Assembly: GCA_015057055.1 (NCBI GenBank)
Contig: SVFE01000013.1
Coordinates: forward strand, 1-51,198
Direction: 5' to 3'
From: Lachnospiraceae bacterium
GTDB lineage: Bacteria; Bacillota; Clostridia; Lachnospirales; Lachnospiraceae
Length of the DNA: 51,198 nucleotides
Within the stretch, counting starts at the first letter, position 1, and each line of letters opens with the position of its first letter. The translations under genes and the position numbers were made by a program. Shown piece by piece: positions 11,789-39,263 of the stretch. A model generated the notes under the pieces. The model did not search any database and was not told where the DNA came from. It was given only the letters and a program-made list of their open reading frames with translations.

Positions 11789-11917
11789 CAGATAAACAAG
11801 TTTTATGTAAACCAAACACTACGTTTAGGGAAAAAAGACGACGTCCATGGAAAATGGGTTGTAATAATAAATTTGGTGTGTATAATTGGTTTTTACAAGT
11901 GTAAATTGGATTAAATT

Positions 11918-11953: not shown

Positions 11954-12039
11954 TTAGGGTTGATTTTTTCTAAATAAAATCTATTGTGAGGATAGTGCAT
12001 TAGTCTCAAAATATGCAAAAAAAAGGGAGGATAATTCTT

Positions 12040-15000
12040 ATGAATTTATCAAAACAAACGAAAAGGCGAGAGAAAAAACGAATGATGAGTATGCTGCTGG
12101 CAATGTTGATGCTCTTTTCCGGCATCTTTGGCATGTTGCCGGGTAGCGGAGCAATGAAAGCCTATGCTGCAGATGTTTCCGAAAATGAAGTATCGGAAAA
12201 TGTGATATCAGAAAATGAAGTGTACGAAAACGCGGCAACCGAAAATGAAATATCCGAGAATGATATTACAGAACCGGATTTATCAGAGAATACCGTATCG
12301 GAGAATAACAGCAGTGAAGGATATGTTATAATGGAACCGGACGATGATTTAGAAGAAGTGGTCGTGGTAACAGAGCCCGAAGATGTGCATTATGAGGGGG
12401 AAGGCTTCCGGGTTGATTTTGTGGTGCAGTCTTCTTGGGAAAACCATTACAATGCGGTAATTACAGTAACAAATACATCCGATGAGACGCTTCACAACTG
12501 GGGACTTTCTTTTGAAAGTACGGATTCCATATCCGGGCTTTATAACGTGGCGGAACCGGACGGGGAAAGTGAAATCAGACTGTTTAAAAATGCAGGATGG
12601 AATCAGGATATCCCGGCAGGTGGTACGGTCTTCTTTGGATATACGGCGTCCTATGGGGGAAATCCGGATGTACCGCAGGAATTTGCCATCGCCTCTGTGG
12701 AGAAAGTGGTAAGCAGCGACAGGTATGAGGTGAGCTGCGTCCTTTATGAAGAATGGGAAAGTGGCGGTCTGGTGCAGCTTATCATCGAAAATATTTCGGA
12801 TACAACCATTGAAGATTGGAGAATCGAATTTGACTCCGCCATGAATATTTCGGAGATTTGGGATGGAGTCGTTGTAAGCCATGAGGGTCAGCATTATCAG
12901 TTGCAAAATGCGGACTATGCCCAGAATATTGCACCCGGGGAAAGCCATATCGTCAGCATGATTATTGAAGGCGAACTTGGAGAAGAGACCCTGACTAATT
13001 TGACAGCAGGGGAAGTGGTAGTGGAAATGGATGCCGCGGATGAGGAAGGAGACGGCGAAGGGGACGCAGGCGAAAACGCGGAAGATATTCGGGTTATAAG
13101 TGGTGGTGAAGATGGCGTAGGACAGATTTACTATAAAGAGATTTCTTCCATGGAGGATATCGTTTATACCGAGGATATGTTATCCTGCGTCAGAAATCAG
13201 TTTTTGCTCATGGGTACAGAAACGGCACAATTTGAAGAAATAGAGAATTTGGTTGCTGCGCAAGATGCAAGAATCGTAGGATATATTGAGACAACAAATG
13301 TATATCAGGTGGAATATAATTATGATATTACGCCGGATGAAATAGAAATAGCATTGGATTTATACAGAAATTCAGGGTTGGTTGAACTGGCAATGTTGAA
13401 TTATATTGCTTACGAAAGTTCCTGTTTTGGAACAACTGACAGCGAATGGAATTCGTCGTGGACGACTGAATATCCATATGGAAATGATTGGGGAATTGAA
13501 GCAATTGATATGGAAGGAGCTCTCATCCAAGCCGGTGTAATCAGCGGAAACAATTGCACCGCAAATGATATTCGCACAGACCACTTGCAGACCGTACGCA
13601 TAGGACTAATCGATAGTTGTTTTGATGTATGGCATGAAGATCTTAGTGAAAACTTTGTGCGAACTTGGAATGATTTTTTTTCTCTGGAAGACTTGCAAGC
13701 AGGATTTGCAAATGATGCCGGTTTGTCGCATGGAACATTTGTTGCAGGTATTATGGCGGCGGAATTTAATAATGGAGTAGGAATAACCGGGGTATGTATA
13801 AAAAATGAGTTGTATGGATTTGCTCTGGATGTGACTAATTCATTTGAAATGGAAGTAGCGTGGAATAGCGCAATGAAAAGAATGTGTGCGATATCCGAAT
13901 TAATAGAGTGTGATGTGAAGGTAATTAATTATAGTAGGGGATATGACGGAATTACATTTGGGGCATCGCAAGGAGATGAATCGGCACTTTCTTTTTTGGA
14001 ACATGATGTTATGTTTATGAATCGGCTTTTGGAGCATTATATAGAAAAAGGATATGATTTTCTGATTATTGCGGCAGCCGGAAACAATAATAATGACAAA
14101 TATTATCGATGTGAGACTGTTACCGGGGGATATTTGAGTGAATCAGCATATGAAGATGCAGAAGATGAATATCAAACAATAAATACATCTGTTACCTATG
14201 GCGCACCAAATGCCAATGCGACGTATACTATGAATGAAACGAATGCCAGATATAGTAATCTGTTTAACTATAGCATGAGTGAAGAAGTACGTAGCCGAGT
14301 TATTGTCGTTGGTGCAGTGATGCTGGATAATAGTAATGGTAGGAGAACTGCTTCTGAATGTAGCGTTACAAGCTTTAGTAATGTTGGCGATAGGGTGGAC
14401 ATACTGGCACCCGGGCAAAATATCTTAAGTTGTATGGTGACGACGGATAATGGTCCATTGTACATAGAAAAAAGCGGAACCTCTGCTGCGGCTCCTTTTG
14501 TGGCAGGGGTTGCGGGACTGGCTTATAATGTTTATCCGGAAATCAGTGCAGTGCAACTGAAAAATATCATTGTATCCGGAGGAACGCTGTTGCAGGATGG
14601 TCAATATTTGTTAAATGCTTCTTATGTAATACAAGAAGTAAACAGATTAAAAAATGGCGATACGAATCTATCCGGTGGACTAATTATGGGGCGCATCATA
14701 GAGTCGGAATCTTCGGAAGGTGCAACCGGATTAGGACAGACTAATGGCGGCATTATAGATGATAACGGAGAATATGTGCCGGATGAGCAATTGGTGGGAA
14801 TCGGAGGAGTTTGTGTTACCGCGCAGGCAATTGATGCCAACAATGAACTGGCGGGAAGTTATACCCAGTTTGCAGTAACGGATGAAAATGGATATTTTAC
14901 ACTTCCGCTTTCTCCGGGGCGATATTATATTGTTGTGGAAAAGCCGGGATATTTAGCGTTTACTTATTATTATGAAATGATAGAACAAGAAAACGCTTAT

Positions 15001-15762
15001 ATTGGGACGATGGTTGCAGAAAGAAATAACATGCATGATGACATATCGGATTTATTGGAATTTACGGATATAAATCTATGCATAAGAAGTAACTATAATG
15101 AGATTTCATTGCAAGGAGCAACGATACAAATCAGAGAAGGATGGGATAACAGAAGCGGAAGTTATGCAGATGCTGCTGACGCTACTATTACAAGTGATGC
15201 AAATGGACATTGCACTATTTCTTTGCCTAGAGGACGATATACAGCAGAGGTGAAAAGAGAAGGGTACGTGGTTGGTTACTATAACGTGGTGGCTGATTCT
15301 GGCGTAAACATGCAGTATTTGAATTTACAACCGGACAGAACTGTATTTTGTACCATAGATATACAAAATGCCGAAGCATATGGTATTTTATTTTGGAGGG
15401 ATATGGAAGAATATGAGGGGACTTACATTTTTACCAGAGGAAATAGTGGTATATCTACATTCCGTTTTCTGGATAATGTTCTTTGCGCAACGTGTGAGAG
15501 CCAGGGAAATGATGGTAGAAATTACAGAATTACGTTGTATGAAAATATATTATTGAGTGAATATGTGAAATTTGAGTTGACGCGAATGAACGGAAATTTA
15601 AGCCAATCAAGTGTAAGAATAACGATAACCTATCCGGATGGAAATGTAGAAAATATACAATGGAATCTAAGTGAACCGGGAATGGTTTGGGATGTGCTTC
15701 AGATAGAAAATGGGCAACTAACAATACTAAATAACATAACAAATGAGCCTACGTTGCCTTAA
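12040..15762 (+). CDS. Large secreted subtilisin-like (S8) protease with CBM2-like and carboxypeptidase-regulatory-like domains
   Basis: 1240 residues from ATG 12040, which follows GGGAGG; the ATG at 12013 has no ribosome site. Order: signal peptide (KRREKKRMMSMLLAML...AYA), a VSEN/SENE-rich linker (about 45-100), two CBM2-like beta domains (about 115-220 and 235-330; NAGWNQDIPAGGTVFFGY is characteristic), a prodomain-like region, the S8 catalytic domain, then two repeat domains of the Cna-B or carboxypeptidase-regulatory type (GRYYIVVEKPGY, GRYTAEVKREGY). The triad is intact: Asp525 (GLIDS), His564 (SHGTFVAG), Ser815 (SGTSAAAPFVAG), with oxyanion Asn682 (AAAGN). It probably acts on extracellular or surface proteins, perhaps anchored to polysaccharide. 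Confidence 0.88.
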   Translation: MNLSKQTKRREKKRMMSMLLAMLMLFSGIFGMLPGSGAMKAYAADVSENEVSENVISENEVYENAATENEISENDITEPDLSENTVSENNSSEGYVIMEPDDDLEEVVVVTEPEDVHYEGEGFRVDFVVQSSWENHYNAVITVTNTSDETLHNWGLSFESTDSISGLYNVAEPDGESEIRLFKNAGWNQDIPAGGTVFFGYTASYGGNPDVPQEFAIASVEKVVSSDRYEVSCVLYEEWESGGLVQLIIENISDTTIEDWRIEFDSAMNISEIWDGVVVSHEGQHYQLQNADYAQNIAPGESHIVSMIIEGELGEETLTNLTAGEVVVEMDAADEEGDGEGDAGENAEDIRVISGGEDGVGQIYYKEISSMEDIVYTEDMLSCVRNQFLLMGTETAQFEEIENLVAAQDARIVGYIETTNVYQVEYNYDITPDEIEIALDLYRNSGLVELAMLNYIAYESSCFGTTDSEWNSSWTTEYPYGNDWGIEAIDMEGALIQAGVISGNNCTANDIRTDHLQTVRIGLIDSCFDVWHEDLSENFVRTWNDFFSLEDLQAGFANDAGLSHGTFVAGIMAAEFNNGVGITGVCIKNELYGFALDVTNSFEMEVAWNSAMKRMCAISELIECDVKVINYSRGYDGITFGASQGDESALSFLEHDVMFMNRLLEHYIEKGYDFLIIAAAGNNNNDKYYRCETVTGGYLSESAYEDAEDEYQTINTSVTYGAPNANATYTMNETNARYSNLFNYSMSEEVRSRVIVVGAVMLDNSNGRRTASECSVTSFSNVGDRVDILAPGQNILSCMVTTDNGPLYIEKSGTSAAAPFVAGVAGLAYNVYPEISAVQLKNIIVSGGTLLQDGQYLLNASYVIQEVNRLKNGDTNLSGGLIMGRIIESESSEGATGLGQTNGGIIDDNGEYVPDEQLVGIGGVCVTAQAIDANNELAGSYTQFAVTDENGYFTLPLSPGRYYIVVEKPGYLAFTYYYEMIEQENAYIGTMVAERNNMHDDISDLLEFTDINLCIRSNYNEISLQGATIQIREGWDNRSGSYADAADATITSDANGHCTISLPRGRYTAEVKREGYVVGYYNVVADSGVNMQYLNLQPDRTVFCTIDIQNAEAYGILFWRDMEEYEGTYIFTRGNSGISTFRFLDNVLCATCESQGNDGRNYRITLYENILLSEYVKFELTRMNGNLSQSSVRITITYPDGNVENIQWNLSEPGMVWDVLQIENGQLTILNNITNEPTLP

Positions 15763-15778
15763 AAGGAGGGGGAATGAG

Positions 15779-16480
15779 ATGAAAAATAGAAACATAAAAA
15801 GCATAATATTCGGTTTCATAATTATTTCACTTCTTTGCAGTGGCTGTAAACCAAAATACACCGGTGAAGATTATGAGGCTATTCATACCTGCGAAGTGGT
15901 GGAAGATATTACGCAGGAGGAGATTGTTAGTTTTGAGAATATGTTGATTCGTTATAGATATACACAAAATTGGATAGAAGAGTGTGAAAAAGTTGGAAAT
16001 ATTTATTACACGCTTTGTATTTTTAGTGATGGTTCAGTTTATTGCATAAAAGAGTATCACAAATCAGGTTCTGAGCATTTGTTTATCAATTGCAATGATG
16101 AAGTGTGGCAATTTGTAACAGATGTATATTATCTTGGAAAACTATCGGGAGAAGATTTGTTTTTTTTAAATTTTTATATTTCAGAAGTTAATTTTGAAAG
16201 TGACTATTATTTCCGTGAGATGATAGATACGATACCGACTAGTGAGGAAAATGTTAATTTGCAGGACGAGGCATGGATTAGTTGTGGGGGCGCAATAGTT
16301 CGTGAGATGGAGAACGGTGATGAAGAACATTTTTCAGTAGAAGCAAGAAGACACGAGGGCGACAGAATTATAATAACTCTAAGAACTTATGACAGAAATG
16401 CCATAAAAGCCATGGATATTCTCACCGAAAGCTGGTTCTATGAGAAATGGTTGGAACTGATATTTGAAGGGGCAGAGTAA
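15779..16480 (+). CDS. Putative lipoprotein, unknown function
   Basis: 233 residues from ATG 15779, placed by the AAAAGGAGGGGG ribosome site. The N-terminus is a lipoprotein signal: basic start, hydrophobic core, then LLCSGC with Cys23 as the likely lipidated residue. The mature part is acidic and rich in aromatic residues, with no family I recognise. It lies 16 bases after the secreted protease and is probably co-transcribed. An inhibitor, chaperone or partner of that protease is possible but unproven. Confidence 0.7.
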   Translation: MKNRNIKSIIFGFIIISLLCSGCKPKYTGEDYEAIHTCEVVEDITQEEIVSFENMLIRYRYTQNWIEECEKVGNIYYTLCIFSDGSVYCIKEYHKSGSEHLFINCNDEVWQFVTDVYYLGKLSGEDLFFLNFYISEVNFESDYYFREMIDTIPTSEENVNLQDEAWISCGGAIVREMENGDEEHFSVEARRHEGDRIIITLRTYDRNAIKAMDILTESWFYEKWLELIFEGAE

Positions 16481-27624: not shown

Positions 27625-29388
27625 ATGAAAATGATTAAATCCTTAGGGCAATATATCCGGGAATATAAATGGGTTTCTATTATCACGCCCATTTTTATGA
27701 TGCTGGAAGTTGTATTCGAAACATTGATACCCAAAATGATGTCCTCCATCGTGGATTACGGAATCAACGTGCCGGGAGGCGATATGCAGCACATTTATAA
27801 AATGGGCGCGATTATGTTGGCCCTGGCTTTGGGCAGCCTGCTGACCGGTATCGGCGGCGGAGTATTTGCGGCAAAGGCCTCTACCGGATTTGCCAAGAAC
27901 GTTAGGAAGGCCATGTTTGAAAAAATCCAGACCTACTCTTTTTCCAATATCGACAAATTTTCCACGGCGGGACTGATTACCCGTCTGACTACGGATGTTA
28001 CCAACGTGCAGAATGCGTATCAGATGATTTTAAGAATGTGCATACGCGCGCCGCTGAGTATGATTTTTGCTATGGTAATGGCGTTTTTGGTTTCTCCCGA
28101 AATTGCCACCGTGTATCTGATCGCGGTATTTTTCCTTGCGATAGTGCTGGCAATCATTATCCGCTTTGCCATGAAATATTTTTCCAATGCGTTTAAAAAA
28201 TACGATGATTTGAATGCTACCGTGCAGGAAAATGTCAGTGCAATCCGTGTGGTAAAAGCATATGTACGGGAAGAACATGAGATGTCCCGTATGGAGAAGG
28301 CCAGTGACAGTATTTATCAGACCCTGGTGAAGGCGGAAAATATGGTTATTTTGAACTCGCCTTTCATGCAAATTACGGTGTATACCTGTATTTTGCTCAT
28401 CAGCTGGCTGGGGGCCAACATGATTGTATCGGAGACACTTACCACCGGCGAACTGATGCAGCTTCTTACCTACTGCATGAATATTTTGATGAGTCTGATG
28501 ATGATTTCCATGATTTTTGTAATGCTTTCCATGAGTATTGCCAGCGGGGAGCGTATTGTGCAGGTGCTGGACGAAGAGCCGGATATCAAGAATCCGGAGC
28601 AGCCCTGTTATGAGGTAAAGGACGGAAGCATCACGTTTGAAAATGTAGAATTTTCTTATCAGTCGGGGGCTTCGGAGCCGGTGCTGAAGGATATTGATTT
28701 GCAAATTCGTTCCGGCGAAACCATCGGAATTTTGGGTGGTACCGGTAGTGCCAAGACAAGTCTGGTTAATTTAATCAGTCGCCTGTATGATGTTACGGAG
28801 GGAAGAGTTTTGGTCGGCGGACGGGACGTGCGGGATTATGATTTGGAAGTCCTTCGAAATGAAGTGGCCGTGGTGCTGCAGAAAAATACGCTGTTTAGCG
28901 GAACGGTTTTGGAGAATCTCCGCTGGGGTAATGAAAACGCCACGGAGGAAGAGTGCCGGGAGGCGTGCCGCCTTGCCTGCGCGGATGAATTTGTATCGGC
29001 CATGCCGGAGGGATACCATACTTATATCGAACAGGGCGGAAACAATGTATCCGGCGGCCAGAAGCAGCGTCTTTGCATTGCCAGAGCGCTTTTGAAAAAA
29101 CCGAAGGTGCTTATTCTCGATGACAGCACCAGTGCGGTGGATACGGCTACGGATGCCAAAATCAGAAAGGCTTTTCGGGAAGATTTGCCGGGTATTACCA
29201 AGATTATTATTGCCCAGCGAATTTCCAGTATCGAATCCGCTGACCGCATTATCGTAATGGAAGAGGGGCGGATTGACGGCTTCGGAACCCATGAACAGCT
29301 TCTTGCGACCAATGAGATATATCGTGATGTGTACGAGGCTCAGACCGGCCGGGATGCGGACTTTGATGAAGTAGGGGGTGAAGCATAA
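27625..29388 (+). CDS. ABC exporter subunit with degenerate ATP-binding site
   Basis: 587 residues: a six-helix transmembrane domain (about 1-310) and a nucleotide-binding domain. Walker A is altered (GGTGSAKTS, Ala376 where Gly is usual, Lys377 kept). The signature is canonical (VSGGQKQR). The catalytic Glu after Walker B is Asp (ILDDST, Asp500), and the H-loop His is Gln (IIAQRISS, Gln531). These are the marks of the inactive-site partner in heterodimeric exporters such as TM287/288 or BmrCD. Its stop overlaps the next start (TAATG). Likely substrates are drugs or lipids. Confidence 0.93.
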   Translation: MKMIKSLGQYIREYKWVSIITPIFMMLEVVFETLIPKMMSSIVDYGINVPGGDMQHIYKMGAIMLALALGSLLTGIGGGVFAAKASTGFAKNVRKAMFEKIQTYSFSNIDKFSTAGLITRLTTDVTNVQNAYQMILRMCIRAPLSMIFAMVMAFLVSPEIATVYLIAVFFLAIVLAIIIRFAMKYFSNAFKKYDDLNATVQENVSAIRVVKAYVREEHEMSRMEKASDSIYQTLVKAENMVILNSPFMQITVYTCILLISWLGANMIVSETLTTGELMQLLTYCMNILMSLMMISMIFVMLSMSIASGERIVQVLDEEPDIKNPEQPCYEVKDGSITFENVEFSYQSGASEPVLKDIDLQIRSGETIGILGGTGSAKTSLVNLISRLYDVTEGRVLVGGRDVRDYDLEVLRNEVAVVLQKNTLFSGTVLENLRWGNENATEEECREACRLACADEFVSAMPEGYHTYIEQGGNNVSGGQKQRLCIARALLKKPKVLILDDSTSAVDTATDAKIRKAFREDLPGITKIIIAQRISSIESADRIIVMEEGRIDGFGTHEQLLATNEIYRDVYEAQTGRDADFDEVGGEA

Positions 29389-31322
29389 TGGCAGACGGAA
29401 AAGTAAAAGAAGTAAAGATGGGCAGAGGCCGGGCTATGGGACCCAGGCCCAAACTGGAGAACCCCATGGGCACCCTTAAACGGATGATTTCCTATTCCTT
29501 TGGCGCATACAAAATCCAAATTATTCTTGTGTTTGTGGGAATAATCGTTTCCGTGCTCTGTCAGGCAAGAGGAACGCTTTTTACAAAGGAGCTGATTGAC
29601 AAATATATCGTGCCCCTGACGCAAAGCGAAAACCCGGACTTTACGGATTTGAAGGGTGAAATTTTCACCATGGCCATCGTCTATGCGGTGGGAATTGCGT
29701 TTATTTACTTGTACAATAAACTAATGATTTACATTTCTCAGGGAACCCTGAAGAAATTGCGTGTGGATTTGTTCCGTCATATGGAGCGCCTTCCCATTAA
29801 ATATTTTGACACCCATTCCCACGGAGATATTATGTCGGTGTATACCAATGACGTGGATACGCTGCGACAGTTAATCGGGCAGAGTATTCCTCAGCTTTTC
29901 TCCAGTGTAATTACCATTGTGGTGGTATTTGCCTGCATGCTGATTACCAGTGTGCCCCTGACTGTTGTAACACTGATAATGACTACCGTGACACTGTTTG
30001 TCAGCAAAAAGGTAGCGGGTAAGAGCGGCGGCTTCTTCATTTCCCAGCAAAAATCACTGGGTGCGGTAAACGGATACATCGAAGAGATGATGGAAGGCCA
30101 GAAAGTAGTGAAAGTTTTCTGTCACGAAGAAAAGAGTCTGGAACGGTTTTATGAGCTGAATGAGGAATTGTACCAAAATGCCAAGAAGGCCAATCAGTTC
30201 GTCAATATATTGGGACCCATTAACGCGCAAATCGGAAACCTCAGCTATGTTGTCTGTGCCGTGGTTGGCGGTATACTGGCGATCTATGAGGTGCCCTTTT
30301 TCCAGATGCTTTCGCTGGGAAGCCTGGCATCGTTCCTGACATTTAACAAGAGCTTCAACATGCCCATTAACCAGGTGAGCCAGCAGTTCAACAGTGTCAT
30401 TATGGCGCTGGCAGGTGCGGAGCGAGTTTTTAAACTGATGGATGAAAAACCGGAGACGGATGAAGGATATGTCACCCTGGTGAATGCGAAATATGAAAAC
30501 GGTACGCTCACGGAGACAAAAGAAAGGACCGGAATCTGGGCTTGGAAGCATTACCACAAGGCAGACGATACCACGACTTACGTGGAACTGAAGGGCGATG
30601 TGGTATTTGATGATGTGGACTTTGGATACACGGAAGAAAAGATGGTATTGCACAATATTGATTTATTTGCAACGCCGGGTCAGAAGATTGCCTTTGTAGG
30701 TTCTACCGGTGCCGGAAAGACCACCATCACCAATTTGATTAACCGATTTTACGATATCCAGGACGGCAAAATCCGTTACGACGGAATCAACATCAACAAA
30801 ATTAAAAAAGATGATTTGCGCCGGTCTCTGGGAATCGTATTGCAGGAAACCAATCTTTTTACCGGAACTGTCCGGGACAATATTAAATACGGTAAGCTGG
30901 ATGCGACCGAGGAAGAGGTCATTGCAGCGGCAAAGCTGGCCAATGCCCACGGATTTATTTCCCGACTTCCCCAAGGGTATGATACCATGCTTACGGCCAA
31001 CGGAGCGTCCTTAAGTCAGGGCCAGCGGCAGCTTCTCGCCATTGCCAGAGCCGCCATTGCAGACCCGCCGGTGTTGATTTTGGATGAAGCCACCAGCTCC
31101 ATCGATACCCGAACCGAAAAACTGGTGCAGGCAGGAATGGACCGCCTTATGAAGGGCCGGACTACTTTTGTCATTGCCCATCGTCTTTCCACAATTCAAA
31201 ACAGTGATTGCATTATCGTTTTGGAAAAAGGAAAAATAATCGAGCGGGGTAACCACGAGGAGCTTTTGGAAGCAAAAGGAAAATACTACAGTCTCTATAC
31301 TGGCAACCAGATTGGGATGTAA
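29388..31322 (+). CDS. ABC exporter subunit with catalytic ATP-binding site
   Basis: 644 residues. An N-terminal extension and six-helix domain (about 30-345) are joined by an insertion of about 40 residues to the ATPase domain. Walker A GSTGAGKTT (Lys444), Walker B with catalytic Glu (LILDEATSS, Glu567) and the H-loop His (VIAHRLST) are intact. The signature is LSQGQ instead of LSGGQ. With the upstream subunit this gives one consensus and one degenerate ATP site. The gene ends in a strong terminator. Confidence 0.94.
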   Translation: MADGKVKEVKMGRGRAMGPRPKLENPMGTLKRMISYSFGAYKIQIILVFVGIIVSVLCQARGTLFTKELIDKYIVPLTQSENPDFTDLKGEIFTMAIVYAVGIAFIYLYNKLMIYISQGTLKKLRVDLFRHMERLPIKYFDTHSHGDIMSVYTNDVDTLRQLIGQSIPQLFSSVITIVVVFACMLITSVPLTVVTLIMTTVTLFVSKKVAGKSGGFFISQQKSLGAVNGYIEEMMEGQKVVKVFCHEEKSLERFYELNEELYQNAKKANQFVNILGPINAQIGNLSYVVCAVVGGILAIYEVPFFQMLSLGSLASFLTFNKSFNMPINQVSQQFNSVIMALAGAERVFKLMDEKPETDEGYVTLVNAKYENGTLTETKERTGIWAWKHYHKADDTTTYVELKGDVVFDDVDFGYTEEKMVLHNIDLFATPGQKIAFVGSTGAGKTTITNLINRFYDIQDGKIRYDGININKIKKDDLRRSLGIVLQETNLFTGTVRDNIKYGKLDATEEEVIAAAKLANAHGFISRLPQGYDTMLTANGASLSQGQRQLLAIARAAIADPPVLILDEATSSIDTRTEKLVQAGMDRLMKGRTTFVIAHRLSTIQNSDCIIVLEKGKIIERGNHEELLEAKGKYYSLYTGNQIGM

Positions 31323-31334
31323 AAGACAAATAGG

Positions 31335-31379
31335 AAAACTCTGCAAGGTACACAATTTGTGTGCTTGCAGAGTTTTTTT
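31335..31379 (+). terminator. Terminator of the ABC exporter operon
   Basis: Long stem AAAACTCTGCAAG (31335-31347) with CTTGCAGAGTTTT (from 31364), 16-base loop, then a T run. Confidence 0.88.
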
Positions 31380-31461
31380 GTTGAAAGAACTTTTGATTTA
31401 TTCGGATATAAAAAATAAATTAGTTAATGAATATAAAAAAAGTGAAAGTGAGGAAAAGAGG

Positions 31462-32067
31462 TTGGCTAATGTATACGGATATATTCGAGTTAGTACAAAA
31501 GAACAGCATGAAGACAGACAAATAGTCTCTATGCAGAAATTAAAAATACCTAAAGGGCATATCTATATGGACAAAGTATCAGGAAAAGATTTTAACAGAC
31601 CCATGTATCAGTGTATGTTAAGTAAGTTAAAAGAAAATGATGTACTTTATGTGGTGAGCATAGATCGCCTGGGAAGAAATTACGAAGAGATTATAGAGCA
31701 ATGGAGGAAATTAACAAAAGAAATAAAAATAGATATTGTTGTTCTTGATATGCCACTGTTGGATACCAGACGCGGAAAAGATTTAATGGGAACTTTTTTA
31801 AGCGATATTGTGTTACAAGTACTTTCTTTTGTTGCGGAGAATGAAAGAGCTAATATAAAAAAGAGGCAGGCAGAAGGAATTGCCGTAGCAAAGGCAAAGG
31901 GTGTTAAATTTGGTCGTCCGTCCAAAGAATTGCCGGAAAATTTTACTTGTATGTATAAGAAATGGAAAGAAGGAAAAATAACGGGAACGGAAGCTGCAGA
32001 TGCGTGTGGAATGCCCATATCAACGTTTTTTTATAGGGCAAAAAAATACGCAGAAGAATTTGCATAA
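31462..32067 (+). CDS. Small serine recombinase, probable DNA invertase
   Basis: 201 residues from TTG 31462, giving the typical MANVYGYIRVSTKEQHEDRQ start; GTGAGG lies eight bases upstream. The nucleophile Ser is in YIRVS, with SIDRLGRNYEEI, MGTFLSDIVLQVLSFVAENERANIKKRQAEGI and GVKFGRPSK as in Hin/Mpi/resolvase-type enzymes. A C-terminal HTH follows (EAADACGMPISTFFYRAKKY). It stands alone, with no transposase. Five bases after its stop lies the first of two inverted crossover-like sites flanking a promoter segment, its most likely substrate. Confidence 0.9.
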   Translation: MANVYGYIRVSTKEQHEDRQIVSMQKLKIPKGHIYMDKVSGKDFNRPMYQCMLSKLKENDVLYVVSIDRLGRNYEEIIEQWRKLTKEIKIDIVVLDMPLLDTRRGKDLMGTFLSDIVLQVLSFVAENERANIKKRQAEGIAVAKAKGVKFGRPSKELPENFTCMYKKWKEGKITGTEAADACGMPISTFFYRAKKYAEEFA

Positions 32068-32072
32068 AATGC

Positions 32073-32091
32073 AAAAAAGTGTACTTTTTTG
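32073..32091 (+). repeat. Left inverted repeat / invertase crossover site
   Basis: AAAAAAGT-GT-ACTTTTTT followed by G. The two 8-base arms are perfect inverted copies around an asymmetric GT centre (32081-32082), the form of a serine-recombinase crossover site. The 19 bases are the exact reverse complement of 32199-32217. Confidence 0.8.
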
Positions 32092-32207
32092 TAGTTTGAG
32101 TTTATATCTTTAAAACTTATTTCATCATATCAAATACATACCTTTTTTTCAAGAATAATCAAAAAATTGTGAATATATGATTGTAATGTTTGGCTTTTCA
32201 AAAAAGT
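32083..32207. promoter_or_regulatory. Putative invertible promoter segment upstream of the kinase operon
   Basis: About 125 AT-rich bases lie between the two crossover centres, without an ORF. On the minus strand TTGAAA (32152-32147), 17 bases, TATGAT (32129-32124) form a good promoter that now points left, into the 3' end of the recombinase gene. No comparable promoter points right: the plus-strand TATGAT at 32176-32181 has no -35 box at 16-18 bases. Inversion would aim the promoter at the kinase gene, 60 bases beyond the right repeat. The orientation given here would be OFF. Confidence 0.68.
32124..32152 (-). promoter_or_regulatory. Promoter inside the invertible segment
   Basis: TTGAAA-N17-TATGAT read on the minus strand, with predicted start near 32117. 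In this orientation it would produce RNA antisense to the recombinase 3' end. Confidence 0.6.
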
Positions 32208-32217
32208 ACACTTTTTT
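32199..32217 (+). repeat. Right inverted repeat / invertase crossover site
   Basis: C followed by AAAAAAGT-AC-ACTTTTTT. The arms equal those of the left site, but the centre (32208-32209) is AC instead of GT, so the sites are inverted relative to each other, which would favour inversion over deletion. Confidence 0.8.
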
Positions 32218-32276
32218 AGAAAGGGATTTTAGAGTGAAAAAGTGGGCGTAAAGTACAACGAGGAGGAAGAGAAACA

Positions 32277-34574
32277 ATGAACGAAAAGTATCCATTGGCG
32301 TTACCGCCGGGGACGGTTCTGGCGGGTCAGTATGTTATTGAAGAAGCGCTGGGACAAGGGGGATTTGGAATTACCTATCGTGCACTGGATCATAAGACGG
32401 GTGAAAAAGTAGCTGTTAAAGAATTTTTCCCTGATTCTATGGCAACAAGAACACAGACAACGGTAATGCCTTTCACCGGTGAACGAGGGGAAAGCTATGA
32501 ATACGGAAAGACCTGTTTTTTGCAGGAGGCAGAAACGCTAGCACAGTTTATCGGTAATGAAAACATTGTGCGAATCCATAGTTATTTTGAAGAAAATGGC
32601 ACTGCATATTTTGTTATGGATTTCGTGGAAGGTATCAGTTTTGATGATTACATCAAAGAAAAAGGCGGAAAGATTAGTTATGAAGAAGCAGAAAATGTAT
32701 TAATAAAAATTATTGATGCTCTTTCAGTTGTTCATAGTAAAGGCATCGTTCATCGTGATGTCACACCGGACAATATTTACATTACAAAAGACGGAACGGT
32801 AAAGTTGCTGGATTTTGGAGCCGCAAGATATAGTTTGGGAGACAAAAGCAGGAGTTTGGACGTTGTGTTAAAACATGGTTTTGCTCCGAAGGAACAGTAT
32901 ACGAGACATGGAAAACAAGGACCATATACGGATATCTATACGGTAGGTGCCAGTTTCTACTTTGCCATAACCGGAAAGCGTCCGCCGGATTCTATCGACC
33001 GAATTGAAGAGGATAATCTGATTCCCCCCAGTAGTTTAGGGGTTAGTATCCCGAGAATGAAAGAAGATGCCATTCTCATGGCAATGAGTGTGCAACCTGC
33101 GGAACGATTTAAATCTATGGCAGCTTTCAAGCAGGCATTACTTGGAGAAACTGCAGATGCCGGGAACGTAGTACAACCTTCCGTAGTAGAACAGAGGGTA
33201 TTTACGGCGCCTGCTCAAGGGGGTGTTCCGGTAGTAACGGCCGGTTCAATGCAACAGCCGGTTGATTATTCGCAGACGATTCCAGCAATACAGGCAGTTG
33301 AAGCTGCGCAACCAAAGAAAAAGAAGTCATTGCTTCCGCTATGGATTGTGTTAGGACTTTTGGCTCTTGCCGGTATTATCACAGCTATCGTATTGGTGGT
33401 AAACAGTAAGAATGAAAGTTCTTCCAGAAGAGACAGAGATGAGGAGTACGAAGAGGAAGAAGAATCAAGACGAGATGAGGAAGATGATGAAGAGGAGGAA
33501 GAAGAGGAAGAAGAACCGGTAGTACAGGAGCCGGAAGAAGAGGAAGAACCGGTTGTACAGGTGCCGGAGGAAGAGCCGGAAACACAGGTGCCTCAAACAC
33601 AGGATACTCAAGTTACAGTTAATGATGTGGGTAGCTTCGATACAACGACGGCAAATAATGTAGCTAATTATGGAATTATGGTAGGAAATTCGAGGGAACA
33701 GTGGTACGTTCATCCTTCTAACGGATTAGCATATTGGGATTCCGCAAATGGAGCATTGAATGCTGACAGTCGGGCGGGCATAAGAAGTCTCAATATTGTC
33801 GATAATGATAGAATTGTGTATGTTGCTTCAAATACAGCGTATGTATATTACAAATCAGAGGGAGCGGCTTACCCAATAAGTGAATTAGATGAATATGCAG
33901 GAAGCATATATGCTATTTGGGCTAATTCGGAAGGAGCTTTCTTTGTTACACGTACCTCGGAAGGACGTTATCTTCTGAATTATATGAATTGGAATACCGG
34001 AATAACTCCTTATTCCTATTATGTAAATGGTCAATGGGGAGTTACCATTATGGGTGACTATATTTATTTTATATCTGAATCGGAGAGGATTGTTTATAAG
34101 CAAGAGATGTCAACATTTGGAACTCAGCCCTTAGACAATTCAGCACAGGAAATATTGAGTCTGTCAGATGATGAGGCATTTTGTTTGACAGCAGAAAACG
34201 GATATTTATATTTACTGGGATTTGACCAGGATGGATATCATTATTTGGTTCGTGTCGATGCAGCTACCGGTGATATGCATACGGGAACTATAGATGACGG
34301 AAATTCTTTGTCGGCAATAAATGTGTGTAACGGAGTAATATATTACACAACATACGATTCGAATAGTGGGTCTTCCGATTTATATTCTGCAACATTTAGT
34401 TCGTCCGGAAATTTGAATTATCAATGGATATGTAGTATTGAAGGAAATGCGTTGGGAATAAACGTTTGGTCACAAAATGATGAGATTTGGTTTTTTATAA
34501 GTGATGCAAACAACAATCTCGTGGTTGCCTGGATGAATATCGGTGATTATGAAATATGTCAATATTTTGAATAA
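32277..34574 (+). CDS. Transmembrane Ser/Thr protein kinase with extracellular sensor domain
   Basis: 765 residues. The kinase domain (about 15-280) is intact: glycine loop LGQGGFGITYRA, VAVKEF (Lys48), HRDVTPDN (Asp161), DFGAAR (Asp179), FAPKEQY. A Gln/Pro/Ala linker precedes one membrane helix (about 352-374), a strongly acidic Glu/Asp stalk (about 380-440) and an extracellular C-terminal domain (about 450-765). That domain resembles DUF5050-type beta-propeller repeats (DRIVYVASNTAYVYY, GVIYYTTYDS). It is the first gene of a signalling operon and has AGGAGGAAG as ribosome site. It would phosphorylate Thr residues recognised by the FHA proteins downstream. Confidence 0.9.
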   Translation: MNEKYPLALPPGTVLAGQYVIEEALGQGGFGITYRALDHKTGEKVAVKEFFPDSMATRTQTTVMPFTGERGESYEYGKTCFLQEAETLAQFIGNENIVRIHSYFEENGTAYFVMDFVEGISFDDYIKEKGGKISYEEAENVLIKIIDALSVVHSKGIVHRDVTPDNIYITKDGTVKLLDFGAARYSLGDKSRSLDVVLKHGFAPKEQYTRHGKQGPYTDIYTVGASFYFAITGKRPPDSIDRIEEDNLIPPSSLGVSIPRMKEDAILMAMSVQPAERFKSMAAFKQALLGETADAGNVVQPSVVEQRVFTAPAQGGVPVVTAGSMQQPVDYSQTIPAIQAVEAAQPKKKKSLLPLWIVLGLLALAGIITAIVLVVNSKNESSSRRDRDEEYEEEEESRRDEEDDEEEEEEEEEPVVQEPEEEEEPVVQVPEEEPETQVPQTQDTQVTVNDVGSFDTTTANNVANYGIMVGNSREQWYVHPSNGLAYWDSANGALNADSRAGIRSLNIVDNDRIVYVASNTAYVYYKSEGAAYPISELDEYAGSIYAIWANSEGAFFVTRTSEGRYLLNYMNWNTGITPYSYYVNGQWGVTIMGDYIYFISESERIVYKQEMSTFGTQPLDNSAQEILSLSDDEAFCLTAENGYLYLLGFDQDGYHYLVRVDAATGDMHTGTIDDGNSLSAINVCNGVIYYTTYDSNSGSSDLYSATFSSSGNLNYQWICSIEGNALGINVWSQNDEIWFFISDANNNLVVAWMNIGDYEICQYFE

Positions 34575-34596
34575 ATAACAAAGGAGGAAGTAAAGA

Positions 34597-35235
34597 ATGG
34601 GAGCATTTGTAGAATGTGCAAACGGACATATTTATGATACAGAGGTTTATGCATCTTGTCCTTATTGTAATGGCGGCGGAAACAGAATTGAATTTGGCGG
34701 TGGTGATTCCGGAATCGGTAAAACGGCGCCGGTATCCGGATATATGCCCCAGAACATGACACCGGAGGTGGGAGCTACCGTGGCTCCTGCCGGATATCAG
34801 AATCAGTTTGCACCTCAGGGAAGAAACGTAGAAGATAAAGATACCGGTAAAACCGTAGCAGTGTTCCAGAAAACAATGAAGATGGAACCGGTAGTTGGGT
34901 GGTTTGTTTGTATTGAAGGACCGGATAAGGGAAAGGATTTTAGAATTCTTGCGAAAAACAATACAATCGGAAGAGGCGAAAAAATGGATATTTGCATAAA
35001 AGGTGATTCTTCTATTTCAAGAGAAAACCATGCAAGAATCGGATATGATGAGAAGCACAATGCTTTTCATTTGATTCCGGGAGAAAGTGCAAATAACATT
35101 TACATCGGCGAAGATCCGGTGTATGTACCTACAAAATTGGAAGCAGATATGATTATCGAACTTGGTGAAACAAAACTGATTTTTGTACCGTTCTGCAGCG
35201 ATAAATTTACCTGGAAAGAGGGAGTAAAGGAGTAA
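34597..35235 (+). CDS. Soluble FHA-domain protein with N-terminal zinc-ribbon-like motif
   Basis: 212 residues. The N-terminus has CANGHIYDTEVYASCPYCNG, a Cys/His cluster likely to bind zinc. A Gly/Pro/Ala linker contains DKDTGKTVAVFQKT, a plausible phospho-Thr site. A C-terminal FHA domain (about 105-205) keeps the binding residues: IGRG, SISRENHARI and NNIYI. It should bind phospho-Thr peptides made by the upstream kinase. It sits 22 bases after the kinase gene and six before a PP2C gene. Confidence 0.85.
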   Translation: MGAFVECANGHIYDTEVYASCPYCNGGGNRIEFGGGDSGIGKTAPVSGYMPQNMTPEVGATVAPAGYQNQFAPQGRNVEDKDTGKTVAVFQKTMKMEPVVGWFVCIEGPDKGKDFRILAKNNTIGRGEKMDICIKGDSSISRENHARIGYDEKHNAFHLIPGESANNIYIGEDPVYVPTKLEADMIIELGETKLIFVPFCSDKFTWKEGVKE

Positions 35236-35241
35236 TGTATT

Positions 35242-36078
35242 ATGTCATTATCTCAAAATAATATAGAAAATCCTGCTATTCAGGAAAGCCGGATCGCACC
35301 GACGATGCCTTTGCCCAAGCGGTTGCTGAGTTATCAGATCAGTAACTTACAGGGAGTAGGCGCAAGGGAGCGACAGGAAGATTCTTTCACTTTGGCGAAT
35401 GCATTTGACGTAAAGCAGATAAAGAATAACGGATTATTATTTGTCGTGTGCGATGGCATGGGTGGAATGAAGGATGGCAAAGTAGCAAGTGAAACAGCAA
35501 TTGCCAGTATTCGTCAGACATTTCAGTATATGAACCGTTCCTCTGATATTGCCTATCAGTTAAAGGAAGGAATTTATGAAGCCGCGGAAAAAGTAAAGGA
35601 ACAACTGGGAGGCTATGGCGGAAGTACGGTCGTAGCAGGCATTATATATCAGGAGAAACTATATTTTGCCAGCGTGGGCGACAGTTTTTTTTATCTGAAA
35701 AGAGGCGACATGCTTTATAGGTTAAATGAAGAACATACCATGTGTACTCAGATTTATCGGGAATGTATACGGGATGGAAACATGGACCCTGCCGCCGGGA
35801 GAAATGATTCCGAGTCGTCGGCATTGACTCAGTTTCTGGGAATGGTCGGGCTTAGCGAAGTGGATGGTTTTGTAAAACCGTTGCCGCTGAGAGAAGGAGA
35901 TGTACTCCTTGCGTGTTCAGATGGTGTTGGCGGAGTGCTTAATGAAACGGAAGTGTTACAGGCATTAAGTTGTAAAACGCCACAGGAAATGTGTAGTCGT
36001 ATAGAAAGTGGTATTGTGAGCCACAACAGAAAACATCAGGATAACTACACAGCAATTATTGTGAAGTGTGTGAAGTAA
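35242..36078 (+). CDS. PP2C-family Ser/Thr protein phosphatase (first of two)
   Basis: 278 residues. PP2C metal-binding motifs are present: RERQEDSF, VVCDGMGGMKDG, FASVGDSFFYL, LACSDGVGG and the final QDNYTAIIV. It has a short N-terminal extension and no membrane segment. It should reverse phosphorylation by the operon kinase in the cytoplasm. Confidence 0.9.
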   Translation: MSLSQNNIENPAIQESRIAPTMPLPKRLLSYQISNLQGVGARERQEDSFTLANAFDVKQIKNNGLLFVVCDGMGGMKDGKVASETAIASIRQTFQYMNRSSDIAYQLKEGIYEAAEKVKEQLGGYGGSTVVAGIIYQEKLYFASVGDSFFYLKRGDMLYRLNEEHTMCTQIYRECIRDGNMDPAAGRNDSESSALTQFLGMVGLSEVDGFVKPLPLREGDVLLACSDGVGGVLNETEVLQALSCKTPQEMCSRIESGIVSHNRKHQDNYTAIIVKCVK

Positions 36079-36094
36079 ACGAAGGAGAAAAAAG

Positions 36095-37474
36095 ATGAAG
36101 AAAATAGTAAAAAAAATTAAAGCATATGTTCTTGTTCTTGCAATGGTAGCATCTGTAATTGGTGTGATGCCGATGAAGGCATATGCATATGATGATGAAG
36201 TTGACACCGGTGTGGCTGTAGTTGCCTGGTATGTGTATGATGCAGAGTATTGTATATATGCAGATGGATTTTATTCTATTGCAGATTATGTAGGAGAATG
36301 GGGAGACGATGGAGAAGGAATCATGTCTTCCGGTTCCGGATTTTTTGTAGGTGCGTTGGATGAGAATCCGGAATATTTTGTAACCAATTGTCACTGCGTG
36401 GACGATTATATTGCAAGTGACGAAGGTGGTTTTGGTTATATGGAAACAGGCTATACATATGAAGGATATGATATATATCTTGTATATGAAAGCAGTGAAA
36501 TCAGAATTTATTATTCCGAAGATGAATATGACGTAGCGTATATCGTGGATAGCGGTTCTGTAGACAAAGTGGATTTGGCAATTTTAAACATTGCAGACCC
36601 TACAGAAGAGAGACATGCACTGGCACTTTGTGAACCCACGGAAGATATGGTGGGAGAAGAAGTTTGGGCAGTAGGATTTCCCGGTCTTGGAGAAAATGAT
36701 TTTTCCGGAGCAAGTTATTGGGGAGTAAATGATATTACGGTTACCAGTGGTTCCATTAATCGATTTGTCAAAGCGTCAGGCAGCGGTGTGGAAAGAATTC
36801 AGATGGATGCAGTAATCCAGCACGGTAATTCTGGTGGCCCTTTGGTGAATGAGGATGGATGTGTTGTTGGTATTAATACCAATGGTTGGATTGAAGAAAA
36901 CGAACAGAATTATTATGCCATCAATGTAACAGAGTTAATTTCCATGCTGGATAAAAACGATGTGCCCTATGTAATGGGTAAATCCAATGTCGGACTTATT
37001 GTAGGCATTGTAATTGGCGCTGTAGCATTAGTTGCGGCAGTAGCAGTTGTGGCTGTTTTGATGACAAAGAAAGGAAAGAGCAACGGAAACAATACTTCCG
37101 CAAAAGCGAAATCGGCAGCTACTCCGGCAATGGCACAGGCAGCAACAAGTAAAATGCCCATGTTGCGGTCTATGTCTCCACAGCATAACGGTGCGACTTA
37201 TGCAATTAAAAATCAGGCAATTATGATAGGCCGTGATGCAGCGAGATGTACAATTGCTTACAAAGAAGGAACTGCAGGTGTAAGTGGTATGCACTGTAGC
37301 GTTGAATGGAAAGCCGAGATGAACGAATTCCTCGTTACGGATTTGAAATCTTCTTACGGAACCTATCTTATGAGCGGTCAAAGATTACAACCGAATGTGC
37401 CGCACAGATTAAAAGCAGGAGATAGCTTCTATGTGGGTGATAAAGCTAATGTAATTCGAGTAGAGGTAAACTAA
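36095..37474 (+). CDS. Exported trypsin-like protease joined through a TM helix to a cytoplasmic FHA domain
   Basis: 459 residues. A signal peptide (KKIKAYVLVLAMVASVIGV...AYA) is followed by an extracellular S1C/HtrA-like domain (about 35-285) with His100 (TNCHCV), Asp160 (VDLAIL) and Ser246 (QHGNSGGPL). One membrane helix (about 298-321), a Lys/Ala/Asn linker and a cytoplasmic FHA domain (about 365-459) follow. The FHA keeps IGRD and VSGMHCSV but has SYGTYL where NGT is usual. No PDZ domain is visible. The design would link phospho-Thr recognition inside to proteolysis outside. Confidence 0.88.
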   Translation: MKKIVKKIKAYVLVLAMVASVIGVMPMKAYAYDDEVDTGVAVVAWYVYDAEYCIYADGFYSIADYVGEWGDDGEGIMSSGSGFFVGALDENPEYFVTNCHCVDDYIASDEGGFGYMETGYTYEGYDIYLVYESSEIRIYYSEDEYDVAYIVDSGSVDKVDLAILNIADPTEERHALALCEPTEDMVGEEVWAVGFPGLGENDFSGASYWGVNDITVTSGSINRFVKASGSGVERIQMDAVIQHGNSGGPLVNEDGCVVGINTNGWIEENEQNYYAINVTELISMLDKNDVPYVMGKSNVGLIVGIVIGAVALVAAVAVVAVLMTKKGKSNGNNTSAKAKSAATPAMAQAATSKMPMLRSMSPQHNGATYAIKNQAIMIGRDAARCTIAYKEGTAGVSGMHCSVEWKAEMNEFLVTDLKSSYGTYLMSGQRLQPNVPHRLKAGDSFYVGDKANVIRVEVN

Positions 37475-37478
37475 CATT

Positions 37479-38207
37479 ATGAAATTAGATGCTTTTGAGT
37501 ATACCAATCAGGGCGGAAGATCATATAACGAGGATTCAATAGGACATTTCATTATGGGAGAGAGCGGAGTCTTCGTAGTTGCGGACGGACTTGGCGGACA
37601 TCAATTCGGAGAATTGGCATCCGCCTGCGTACGCGACACCTTGGTCAATGATTGGAATGGTGAATTTAATGGACAACCGGCTGAATGGTTAAAAAATAAA
37701 ATTCAGTTGTCAAATCAAACTATTTTGGATATTCAAAAAGAAAAAAATGCGGTACTGAAAAGCACGGTAGTCGCGTTGGCAATTGACAACAGAAGAGCAG
37801 TATGGGCAAATGTAGGAGATTCTAGATTGTATTTTCTTCATCAGGGTGAAATTTCTTCTTTTACGAATGATCATTCTGTTGCATTTAAAAAGTATAAAGC
37901 AGGTGAAATTACAAGGGACCAGATCAGAACAGACGAAGATCAATCATGCCTTCTTCGTTCTATTGGAAGTGAAGACCGCAATGAAGCCGAACTCTATGAT
38001 AAGGATACAACGATAGAAATAGGAGATGCGTTTATGCTTTGTTCTGACGGTGTGTGGGAGTTCCTTTCGGATGAAGAGATTCTGATTGACCTACATAAAG
38101 CTTCATCTGCGAAGGAATGGGCAGAGAATATGTTGGTCAGAATGATGGGACGAATCGAAGGCGGAAATGATAATCTGACAATGCTCACCTTAATGGTTAT
38201 GCCATAA
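37479..38207 (+). CDS. PP2C-family Ser/Thr protein phosphatase (second of two)
   Basis: 242 residues, the compact form of the family. Motifs: GGRSYNEDS, VVADGLGGHQFGE, WANVGDSRLYF, MLCSDGVWEFL and GGNDNLTML. It starts four bases after the protease-FHA stop, so it is firmly in the operon. It is clearly different from the first PP2C, suggesting two phosphatases with separate targets. Confidence 0.9.
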   Translation: MKLDAFEYTNQGGRSYNEDSIGHFIMGESGVFVVADGLGGHQFGELASACVRDTLVNDWNGEFNGQPAEWLKNKIQLSNQTILDIQKEKNAVLKSTVVALAIDNRRAVWANVGDSRLYFLHQGEISSFTNDHSVAFKKYKAGEITRDQIRTDEDQSCLLRSIGSEDRNEAELYDKDTTIEIGDAFMLCSDGVWEFLSDEEILIDLHKASSAKEWAENMLVRMMGRIEGGNDNLTMLTLMVMP

Positions 38208-38230
38208 TAATGAAAGAGAAAGTAAGGTAA

Positions 38231-39217
38231 ATGGTTATGTTTAAAAAACGATTGGTCTTAGTTTTAATTTTCATGCTGACATTTATGCAATTGCCGACGC
38301 AGGTAAACGCAGAAAACATAGTGAGAACCGGCACAGAAGAAACGGATAAACCGGAAAGTGGAAATAAGCCGGAAAATGAAGAAGTGCCGGAGGCAGAAGA
38401 GGAAAAGCCGGAGGAGGATGTGCCGGAGGAAGGTGAGGAGATTTCACCGGAAGAAAGCGAACCGGAAGAGGGAGAACTTACGCCGGAAAGTGAAGAACCT
38501 TTGCCGGAAGAAGGAAATCCGGAAGAAGGTGAACTTACGCCGGTGGGAGGCGAGATTTCACCGGAAGAAGGCGAACCGGAAGAGGGAGAACTTATGCCGG
38601 AAGGTGAAGGACTAATTCCACCGGATACAACATTTCCGGGAGAATCCGAAAAACCGGAACCGGAGGTTGATAATCCATCGGAGGAACCGGAGCGAGATGA
38701 AGAAGATCATGAGGAAGAAAAAGAGTCTTTTGTTCCGATTGTTATTGTAACGGTCATTACCACGATTGCTGTAATTCTTATAGTCGGGGTGATTATTCTT
38801 ATATCAAAAAAAGCACTATCAAAAAAATCAACAACAAAAGAATCGACAACAAAAGAATATTCATGTAGTTCGACTGTAATGCCGATGTATGCAGAGTCAA
38901 ATTATTCCGACGTGAAAACAGGTAAAAAAATATATCTGGAAGGTAGCCTTGGAAAATACAGAACAAAAGGGAGTCCACTGATACTCGGACAGCCATTGAT
39001 TATCGGTTGCGATGTAAATGCTGACATTGTTTTTGAAGATTGTAATGTAGAGCCTTCACATGCGAAGATTGAAGAGATTAATGGTGAAGTATATCTTGTT
39101 GATTTAAGTGATGAATCCGGAACCTATTTGGAAGGAATGCGAATTCAGCAGAAAAATATCCTTCAAAGCGGAGACATAATATCTGTAGGAAATGCAGAAT
39201 TTAAAATAATATTTTAA
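38231..39217 (+). CDS. Stalk-TM-FHA membrane protein with altered phospho-binding loop
   Basis: 328 residues: a signal peptide (about 1-27, ending QVNA), an extracellular Pro/Glu stalk with repeats such as SPEEGEPEEGEL (about 30-165), one membrane helix (about 170-195) and a cytoplasmic FHA-like domain (about 235-328). In the FHA the conserved GR is GC (IIGCDVNAD) and NGT is SGT (DESGTYLEG), although EPSHAKIEE is kept. Loss of the Arg suggests weak or no phospho-Thr binding, so it may have a structural or partner-binding role. It is the last gene of the operon, before a strong terminator. Confidence 0.85.
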   Translation: MVMFKKRLVLVLIFMLTFMQLPTQVNAENIVRTGTEETDKPESGNKPENEEVPEAEEEKPEEDVPEEGEEISPEESEPEEGELTPESEEPLPEEGNPEEGELTPVGGEISPEEGEPEEGELMPEGEGLIPPDTTFPGESEKPEPEVDNPSEEPERDEEDHEEEKESFVPIVIVTVITTIAVILIVGVIILISKKALSKKSTTKESTTKEYSCSSTVMPMYAESNYSDVKTGKKIYLEGSLGKYRTKGSPLILGQPLIIGCDVNADIVFEDCNVEPSHAKIEEINGEVYLVDLSDESGTYLEGMRIQQKNILQSGDIISVGNAEFKIIF

Positions 39218-39221
39218 CAGA

Positions 39222-39263
39222 AAAAAGCTGAACAGTCGTGTTATGCGGTGTGTTCAGCTTTTT
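39222..39263. terminator. Terminator of the kinase/FHA/PP2C operon
   Basis: A 13-bp stem, AAAAAGCTGAACA with TGTTCAGCTTTTT (39251-39263), 16-base loop. It also serves the opposite strand. Confidence 0.88.

Follow-up and report, generated by a model that had tools for sequence, protein, structure and literature searches.

A putative portable invertible promoter with an adjacent serine recombinase ahead of a Ser/Thr phospho-signalling operon in a Lachnospiraceae bacterium

How is a six-gene operon for a membrane Ser/Thr kinase and its partners controlled, when a serine recombinase gene and a short segment bounded by inverted repeats lie directly ahead of it? The question is raised by a 51,198-bp stretch of Lachnospiraceae bacterium DNA (GenBank assembly GCA_015057055.1, contig SVFE01000013.1), called here the window, which makes up the entire contig C56 in a 104-contig, 2.23-Mb assembly. 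The locus very probably holds a portable phase-variation module, composed of a serine invertase and a promoter segment of about 125 bp, ahead of a Hanks-type phospho-signalling operon. Comparison with relatives lends strong support to reading the sequence as a promoter segment that is inverted by a neighbouring serine invertase. The initial annotation had proposed this arrangement, and it was borne out by recurring sites in relatives, flips between homologous loci, promoter-site geometry, and the helical register of the sites. We infer that operon expression depends on the flip, that the sites synapse on the same helix face, and that the signalling steps run as set out below.

The recombinase, its paired sites and the segment promoter

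The recombinase gene (31462..32067, plus strand) encodes 201 amino acids from a TTG start and is the proposed invertase of the adjoining segment. A Pfam scan of the open reading frame (ORF) from 31468 matched PF00239 at E 9.5e-28 (97.6 bits compared to a cut-off of 23.3); the match spans nearly the full profile, and the ORF is open throughout. The closest solved structure was 2r0q, deposited as Tn552 DNA-invertase bin3 (E 2.5e-27). About 50 residues lie C-terminal of the catalytic domain, and no Pfam helix-turn-helix model matched there at 1e-3. By its catalytic domain the protein is classed as a small serine recombinase, for which strand exchange is predicted. It is not a member of the Mpi master DNA invertase family (NF009949), against which it scored 50.1 bits compared to a cut-off of 272. 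A mainly viral home was also rejected, as a scan of viral contigs with six peptide patterns returned four loci with 53-56% identity. A search of the assembled genome turned up no second PF00239 protein, and the stop codon at 32067 is followed after 5 bp by the first repeat arm at 32073, which matches the earlier description of a lone recombinase 5 bp ahead of the segment.

The left recombination site (32073..32091, plus strand) and the right one (32199..32217, minus strand) were identified by an inverted-repeat search and by the site core common to the family. The arms are 19 nt each, 100% complementary and 107 nt apart. Both contain AAAAAAGT-NN-ACTTTTTT, with a GT centre on the left (32081-32082) and an AC centre on the right (32208-32209); therefore, the sites are inverted relative to each other. 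The 125 bp between the centres (32083..32207) form the proposed invertible segment. Both the perfect 19-bp repeats around a 125-bp segment and the asymmetric two-base centres within dyad arms were thus found as initially annotated. The distance from site to site is 127 bp, which is 12.15 turns at 10.45 bp. The AAAAGTNNACTTTT site core occurs twice in the window compared to a mean of 0.00 in 100 shuffles, and no exact copy of the longer site form AAAAAGTNNACTTTTT was found elsewhere in the assembled genome. Because neither another exact site copy nor another PF00239 match was found in the genome, a dedicated pair of enzyme and sites is the simplest reading.

Within the segment, a promoter was matched by consensus on the minus strand (32124..32152, score 11.9). 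Its TTGAAA begins at 32152, the spacer is 17 nt, and TATGAT, with a TG ahead of it, ends at 32124. A second minus-strand match, TTGAAA-18-TATATT (32201-32172), has the same direction. The −10 end lies 41 bp from the exit-site centre. The promoter points at the recombinase, and therefore the operon is drawn OFF as assembled. The best promoter score was just 3.5 between the right-site centre and the kinase gene, and 6.4 ahead of the recombinase gene.

Recurrence of the switch in related loci

A contig scan for recombinase relatives yielded 80 loci. Among 35 genus genomes, 13 have a recombinase match (E up to 1e-20), and among 397 family genomes, 102 do (E up to 1e-60), with this genome counted in both. 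Many of the named relatives are labelled Lachnospiraceae or Clostridia, and some come from other groups, which fits a probable Lachnospiraceae host. Beyond the scan loci, 133 regions were fetched around the listed family matches, leaving out contig-end places and a few others. The first set held 174 unique recombinase genes including that of the window, from which 15 with less than 350 bp downstream were dropped, leaving 159. A second set of 60 further loci from the family sample provided 58 unique genes, and one locus repeated the first set. This second set is a replication and is not phylogenetically independent, because all of it comes from the family genome sample.

Paired sites were concentrated downstream of the recombinase genes. 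Inverted repeats scoring at least 14 within 400 bp were found downstream of 62/159 genes, upstream of 3/157, and in 1/477 shuffles. Site-core pairs were found downstream of 63/159, upstream of 1/157, and in 0/795 shuffles; 75 of the 159 genes carry one or the other. In the second set, site-core pairs occurred downstream of 21/58 genes compared to 1/57 upstream. The left central dinucleotide of the 63 first-set pairs was GT in 43, AC in 10, AT in 4, AG in 3, CT in 2, and AA in 1. It was therefore the asymmetric GT or AC in 53 pairs; AT is palindromic. The site-core rule demands a reverse-complement centre in the partner site, and for this reason only the asymmetry counts as a result for the centres.

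Both segment orientations occur between homologous loci of relatives, and one assembled orientation is known at the window locus. L130 (an Atopobiaceae metagenome-assembled genome, MAG) and L131 (Collinsella tanakaei An368) carry their segments in opposite orientations, with 93% identity over 107 bp. Their flanks (819 bp, 92% identical) are collinear, and the alignment confines the turn between the two sites. In the L057-L060 group, L057 and L060 hold one orientation and L058 and L059 the other, which gives four inverted pairs; the flanks were collinear in the four pairs that could be compared. Together with L130/L131, these make 5 inverted pairs among 12 locus pairs with similar segments.

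The most surprising outcome of the analysis is a helical spacing rule. Site distances in the first set had a best period of 10.45 bp, with a mean resultant length (R) of 0.622 (n = 62, p 1e-4, the floor of the test). A segment shared by two recombinases at locus L232 was counted once here; with it counted twice (63 entries), R was 0.627, at a p of 2e-4 against jittered distances, which is the floor of that test. With the period fixed beforehand at 10.45 bp from the first set, the second set yielded an R of 0.650 (n = 21, p 2.5e-4). The combined 83 segments had an R of 0.625, and 73 of them lay within a quarter turn of whole helical turns. The phasing persisted after thinning by recombinase identity to n = 60 (<80%) and n = 32 (<70%), with p 1e-4 each, and under stricter thinning to n = 20 (<65%, p 0.0019) and n = 10 (<60%, p 0.0071). 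The control distance, from the recombinase end to the left site, was unphased (R 0.06).

The promoters also hold a regular place in the segments. A promoter score of at least 9 was found in 53/83 segments compared to 152/1680 shuffles. The −10 end was 25-45 bp from the exit-site centre in 41 of 52 callable segments, and simulations yielded a mean of 10.1 and a maximum of 20. Promoter and exit site look like a conserved block, with most of the length variation beyond the promoter, on the side away from that site. In 31/84 segments (the L232 segment counted twice there), no promoter orientation was called. With the L232 segment excluded, the promoter pointed toward the recombinase in 36 of 51 called segments and away in 15 (p 0.0046), and after 80% thinning the counts were 31 toward and 10 away. 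This bias could reflect an antisense transcript that reduces recombinase levels in the OFF state; selection for OFF, or assembly consensus, could also account for it.

Several observations weigh against a working invertible promoter at this locus. Neither kind of site was found for 84 of the 159 recombinase genes, and thus some relatives may act otherwise. Seven of the 12 similar-segment pairs share their orientation (L008/L009, L012/L125, L057/L060, L058/L059, L073/L086, L077/L102, and L078/L079). Flipping in this strain is something we infer from relatives. Distances among related recombinases are not independent, and in the stricter test of length changes between sister pairs, which were few and noisy, phasing was not clear (n = 15, R 0.31). 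The promoter was called by its match to the consensus. A scan of 31250-32400 returned six promoter-like sites compared to a shuffle mean of 4.0; therefore, the promoter alone is weak evidence. The earlier claim of a good promoter facing away from the operon holds for the minus-strand match with its TG inside the segment. More weight falls on where the promoter lies in the segment and on the comparison across the family. Furthermore, a strict scan found no terminator-like site on the plus strand between the recombinase and kinase genes, and read-through from the recombinase gene could supply basal operon expression.

It is unlikely that the switch is real in the family and frozen here, with a dead recombinase or promoter and an operon driven by read-through. 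One known orientation at this locus agrees with such a state, but the recombinase ORF is open with a near-full PF00239 match, the arms pair at 19/19 positions, and the promoter sits at the family-typical distance. The perfect repeat argues against freezing, since neutral decay would be expected to break it.

Two related loci depart from the common layout. At L232 (G356:C1), convergent recombinase genes (1979026-1979604, plus strand, and 1979854-1980435, minus strand) share one segment with sites 158 bp apart, and its promoter faces one recombinase and leaves the other. At L123 (a Defluviitaleaceae MAG), nested long inverted repeats lie downstream of the recombinase, each with a site core; they are perfect up to 76 nt and longer with a mismatch.

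The signalling operon and the cargo of related switches

The operon spans 32277-39217 on the plus strand, with intergenic gaps of 4-23 bp. Its first gene (32277..34574) encodes a membrane Ser/Thr kinase (PF00069, E 2.4e-34) with the active-site motif HRDVTPDN, and GAGGAGG stands ahead of its start. Motifs and hydropathy place a transmembrane (TM) segment at residues 357-375, followed by a C-terminal ectodomain that had no Pfam match. A model of the ectodomain from one sequence had moderate confidence (predicted local distance difference test, pLDDT, 68.7). Propeller-type proteins were among its best Foldseek matches, with TM-scores of 0.26-0.55 by query length among the best 50 listed. With moderate confidence, the modelled ectodomain is beta-propeller-like.

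The second gene (34597..35235) encodes an FHA protein (PF00498, E 9.9e-9) with a Cys-rich N terminus, read from its Cys motif. It is followed by a PP2C phosphatase gene (35242..36078; PF00481, E 1.7e-8) with the metal motifs, whose product matched the Stp1 model at E 6.9e-32, under the model cut-off. The fourth product (36095..37474) combines a hydrophobic N terminus that is a likely signal peptide, a trypsin-like protease (PF13365, E 7.8e-21), a TM segment, and an FHA domain (E 3e-12); the catalytic triad motifs are present, and the hydrophobic stretch covers residues 301-319. A second PP2C phosphatase (37479..38207; PF13672, E 2e-11, and motifs) precedes the last protein (38231..39217), which has a likely signal peptide, an acidic stalk, a TM segment, and an FHA domain (E 4.8e-12).

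This last FHA domain has IGCD in place of the IGR of the other two, so that the Arg is missing in one of three FHA domains. For this reason, canonical phospho-Thr binding by the stalk protein is doubtful. Domains and motifs otherwise agree with the annotated order of TM kinase, FHA, PP2C, trypsin-TM-FHA, PP2C, and stalk-TM-FHA. Kinase and PP2C active-site motifs together with FHA domains identify a Hanks-type kinase/PP2C/FHA module. The kinase is not a PknB/Stk1 PASTA kinase (NF033483, 157.1 bits compared to a cut-off of 450), and PASTA repeats had no Pfam match. No histidine kinase or response regulator domain was found in the six operon proteins at E 1e-3. Read from its domains, the operon may encode a signalling cascade tied to an external protease.

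The genes behind related switches were surveyed from 55 first genes among 59 repeat-bearing entries, with the window, L120 and L123 set aside; 51 were scanned, and counts are from the 25 of 81 families listed. Among the listed families, the 51 first genes included five BspA leucine-rich repeat proteins, four zinc ribbons, three helicases with HA domains, and two family 2 glycosyltransferases. An EAL protein, MmeI-type and EcoRI-type methylases, and a bacterial sugar transferase occurred singly. A general tie of the recombinase family to kinases was rejected, as the cargo behind the switch is diverse. Signalling cargo like that of the window is rare.

The initial annotation had suggested searching relatives for the recombinase-repeat-kinase arrangement, and two loci have a switch before kinase or FHA-like genes. 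At L080 (a Roseburia MAG), the recombinase and its site pair are followed by genes for a DUF6273 protein and for two Ser/Thr kinases, of which one carries PASTA domains; the largest inverted repeat at this locus is distinct from the recombination site pair. At L262, the first gene behind the recombinase and site pair is related to the one for the Cys-rich FHA protein (phmmer 1.2e-19, no Pfam match), and next comes a divergent kinase-like region with a hydrophobic stretch (phmmer 5e-13, no Pfam match), in a gene truncated by the contig end. At L101, a kinase gene lies 3.5 kb downstream of the recombinase, with no qualifying sites.

The module also exists apart from the switch. The Cys-rich FHA protein was matched in 58 of the 397 family genomes, and a comparison of coordinates by eye placed the recombinase and FHA genes together in at least two of these, the window and G250. 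Eight of the 397 genomes, the present one among them, have a match to the protease-TM-FHA protein (E up to 1e-25). In the seven others, Cys-rich FHA, PP2C, protease-FHA and kinase genes are clustered, and ten genes scanned from three of these genomes included some vWA-FHA, PrsW-FHA or dynamin-FHA fusions. No recombinase relative and no exact AAAGTNNACTTT core was found in the stretch fetched around any of the seven modules; in G227 and G258, a recombinase relative lies on a different contig. Therefore, a portable switch most likely took over a signalling module that was already present.

These switch-free modules, and the diversity of genes behind the switch, would also agree with a cassette that came to lie beside the operon by chance and has no regulatory bearing on it. 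Such an accident is quite improbable, as the inverted promoter would aim straight into the kinase gene, with GAGGAGG before its start and no intervening promoter score above 3.5, and kinase or FHA-like genes stand behind the switch at L080 and L262 too.

Other cargo was observed along the way. The first genes of L078 (446 aa) and L099 (464 aa) match the Cas12f1-like TNB domain PF07282 (E 1.4e-7 and 4.8e-14, respectively), which could be read as TnpB; at L078, sugar-nucleotide genes stand second and third after this gene. Helicases with repeated HA domains lie behind the switch at L060, L226 and one more locus, and MmeI- and EcoRI-type methyltransferases elsewhere, which suggests phase-variable defence or modification systems. 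At L056 (9839-12796), the gene behind the switch encodes a protein of EAL/GGDEF type that also has PAS and GAF domains, in parallel with phase-variable cyclic di-GMP (c-di-GMP) enzymes. On the minus strand of L200, the kinase/FHA/PP2C module has two neighbours (11699-13564 and 14201-16339), one a dynamin-FHA fusion and the other a gene for a bacterial dynamin-like protein, which hints that membrane remodelling may be under phospho-control.

Proposed mechanism, known systems and flanking features

In the proposed mechanism, invertase dimers would bind the two AAAAAAGTNNACTTTTTT sites, which would meet in a tight loop that needs both on the same helix face. The DNA would be cut at the central GT/AC dinucleotide and rejoined with the segment turned. 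In the ON orientation, the promoter would transcribe the kinase, FHA, PP2C, protease-FHA, PP2C and stalk-FHA genes. In the OFF orientation, as assembled, it would run away from the operon and antisense across the recombinase gene. Phosphorylation of targets and of FHA partners by the kinase would be undone by the PP2C pair, and the bitopic FHA proteins would couple the inside state to the outer protease and stalk.

Some resolvases repress their own genes, and the exit site lies 41 bp beyond the −10 end, within the early part of the transcript. Still, a purely operator role for the repeats, in which the recombinase would shut down its own gene or the operon and the segment would never turn, is highly improbable given that homologous loci hold the segment in opposite orientations between the sites and that 53 of 63 pairs have an asymmetric GT or AC centre. 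Repression by the recombinase may coexist with inversion.

The switch and its cargo can be compared with several known systems. Mpi is a serine recombinase that inverts promoters; here, the sites were found only beside the recombinase gene. The Hin segment carries a promoter and has the hin gene inside it, unlike the 125-bp segment here with its recombinase gene outside. Hanks-type membrane kinases paired with a PP2C phosphatase are represented by Stk1/PASTA kinases with Stp1, whereas the window operon has separate FHA receptors and a membrane protease, and no PASTA match. Hin of Salmonella resembles the present system as a small serine recombinase with two inverted sites, and it is regulated by a Fis-bound enhancer, for which the phrase "helical phasing" has been used (PMC3798978). 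In C. difficile (Clostridioides difficile), pdcB has an invertible promoter over a signalling enzyme, as here, and a further promoter upstream of the switch; unlike here, the enzyme is a c-di-GMP phosphodiesterase (PMC9286219).

The initial annotation held that switching of a whole phospho-signalling cascade was not a described system. This was too strong, because phase variation of phosphorylation signalling via an invertible element is known from CmrRST (Cdi6) of C. difficile, a phase-variable two-component system with the element before the signalling operon (PMC6837544). As with CmrRST, a whole phosphorylation signalling system would here be under an invertible element. CmrRST consists of a histidine kinase and response regulators, whereas the present operon has a Ser/Thr kinase, PP2C, FHA proteins and a protease. 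The excerpted text on CmrRST calls the mechanism undefined and mentions no adjacent recombinase (PMC6837544), whereas here the recombinase adjoins the segment. Of the functions encoded close to invertible sites in Clostridia, intracellular signalling and chemotaxis were the most prevalent (PMC5903667), and one Clostridia-dominated inverton group is linked to a tyrosine-type recombinase group (PMC11892184). In the literature searched, with most subscription papers outside it, neither a Hanks-type kinase/FHA/PP2C/protease operon under an invertible promoter (among the titles and abstract openings listed) nor a report of helical phasing of invertase sites in such short segments (among the 12 of 53 papers listed) was found. 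Phospho-signalling cargo is an unusual but not unique target of phase variation.

A broader reading can be put forward tentatively, at slightly less than even confidence. Clostridia and their relatives may hold a large family of self-contained mini-switches, each with a serine invertase and two near-palindromic sites whole helical turns apart, probably joined by small-loop synapsis without an enhancer. The promoter would lie about 30 or 40 bp from the exit site, the OFF antisense transcript over the recombinase gene would perhaps stabilise OFF, and operons of many types would be served. Here, a whole Ser/Thr phospho-signalling system and a surface protease would come under clonal on/off control. 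If so, clonal cells would differ in owning a complete membrane Ser/Thr phospho-signalling system, a bet-hedging layer above single surface traits. The phasing and the fixed promoter-site distance would amount to a mechanical rule for inverting very short DNA segments, and they would provide a search rule for such switches in genomes without read data.

The switch and operon appear to form one unit delimited by terminator-like hairpins. Upstream of the switch, two exporter-type ABC half-transporter genes (27625-31322) are followed by a strong terminator-like hairpin (31335..31376, plus strand), identified as inverted repeat I3 and by RNA folding. The stretch 31320-31385 folds at −30.8 kcal/mol (z −7.13), and the hairpin is not among the sites listed by the strict terminator scan. 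On the 3' side of the operon, a second terminator-like hairpin with a T run (39222..39263, plus strand) was read by eye.

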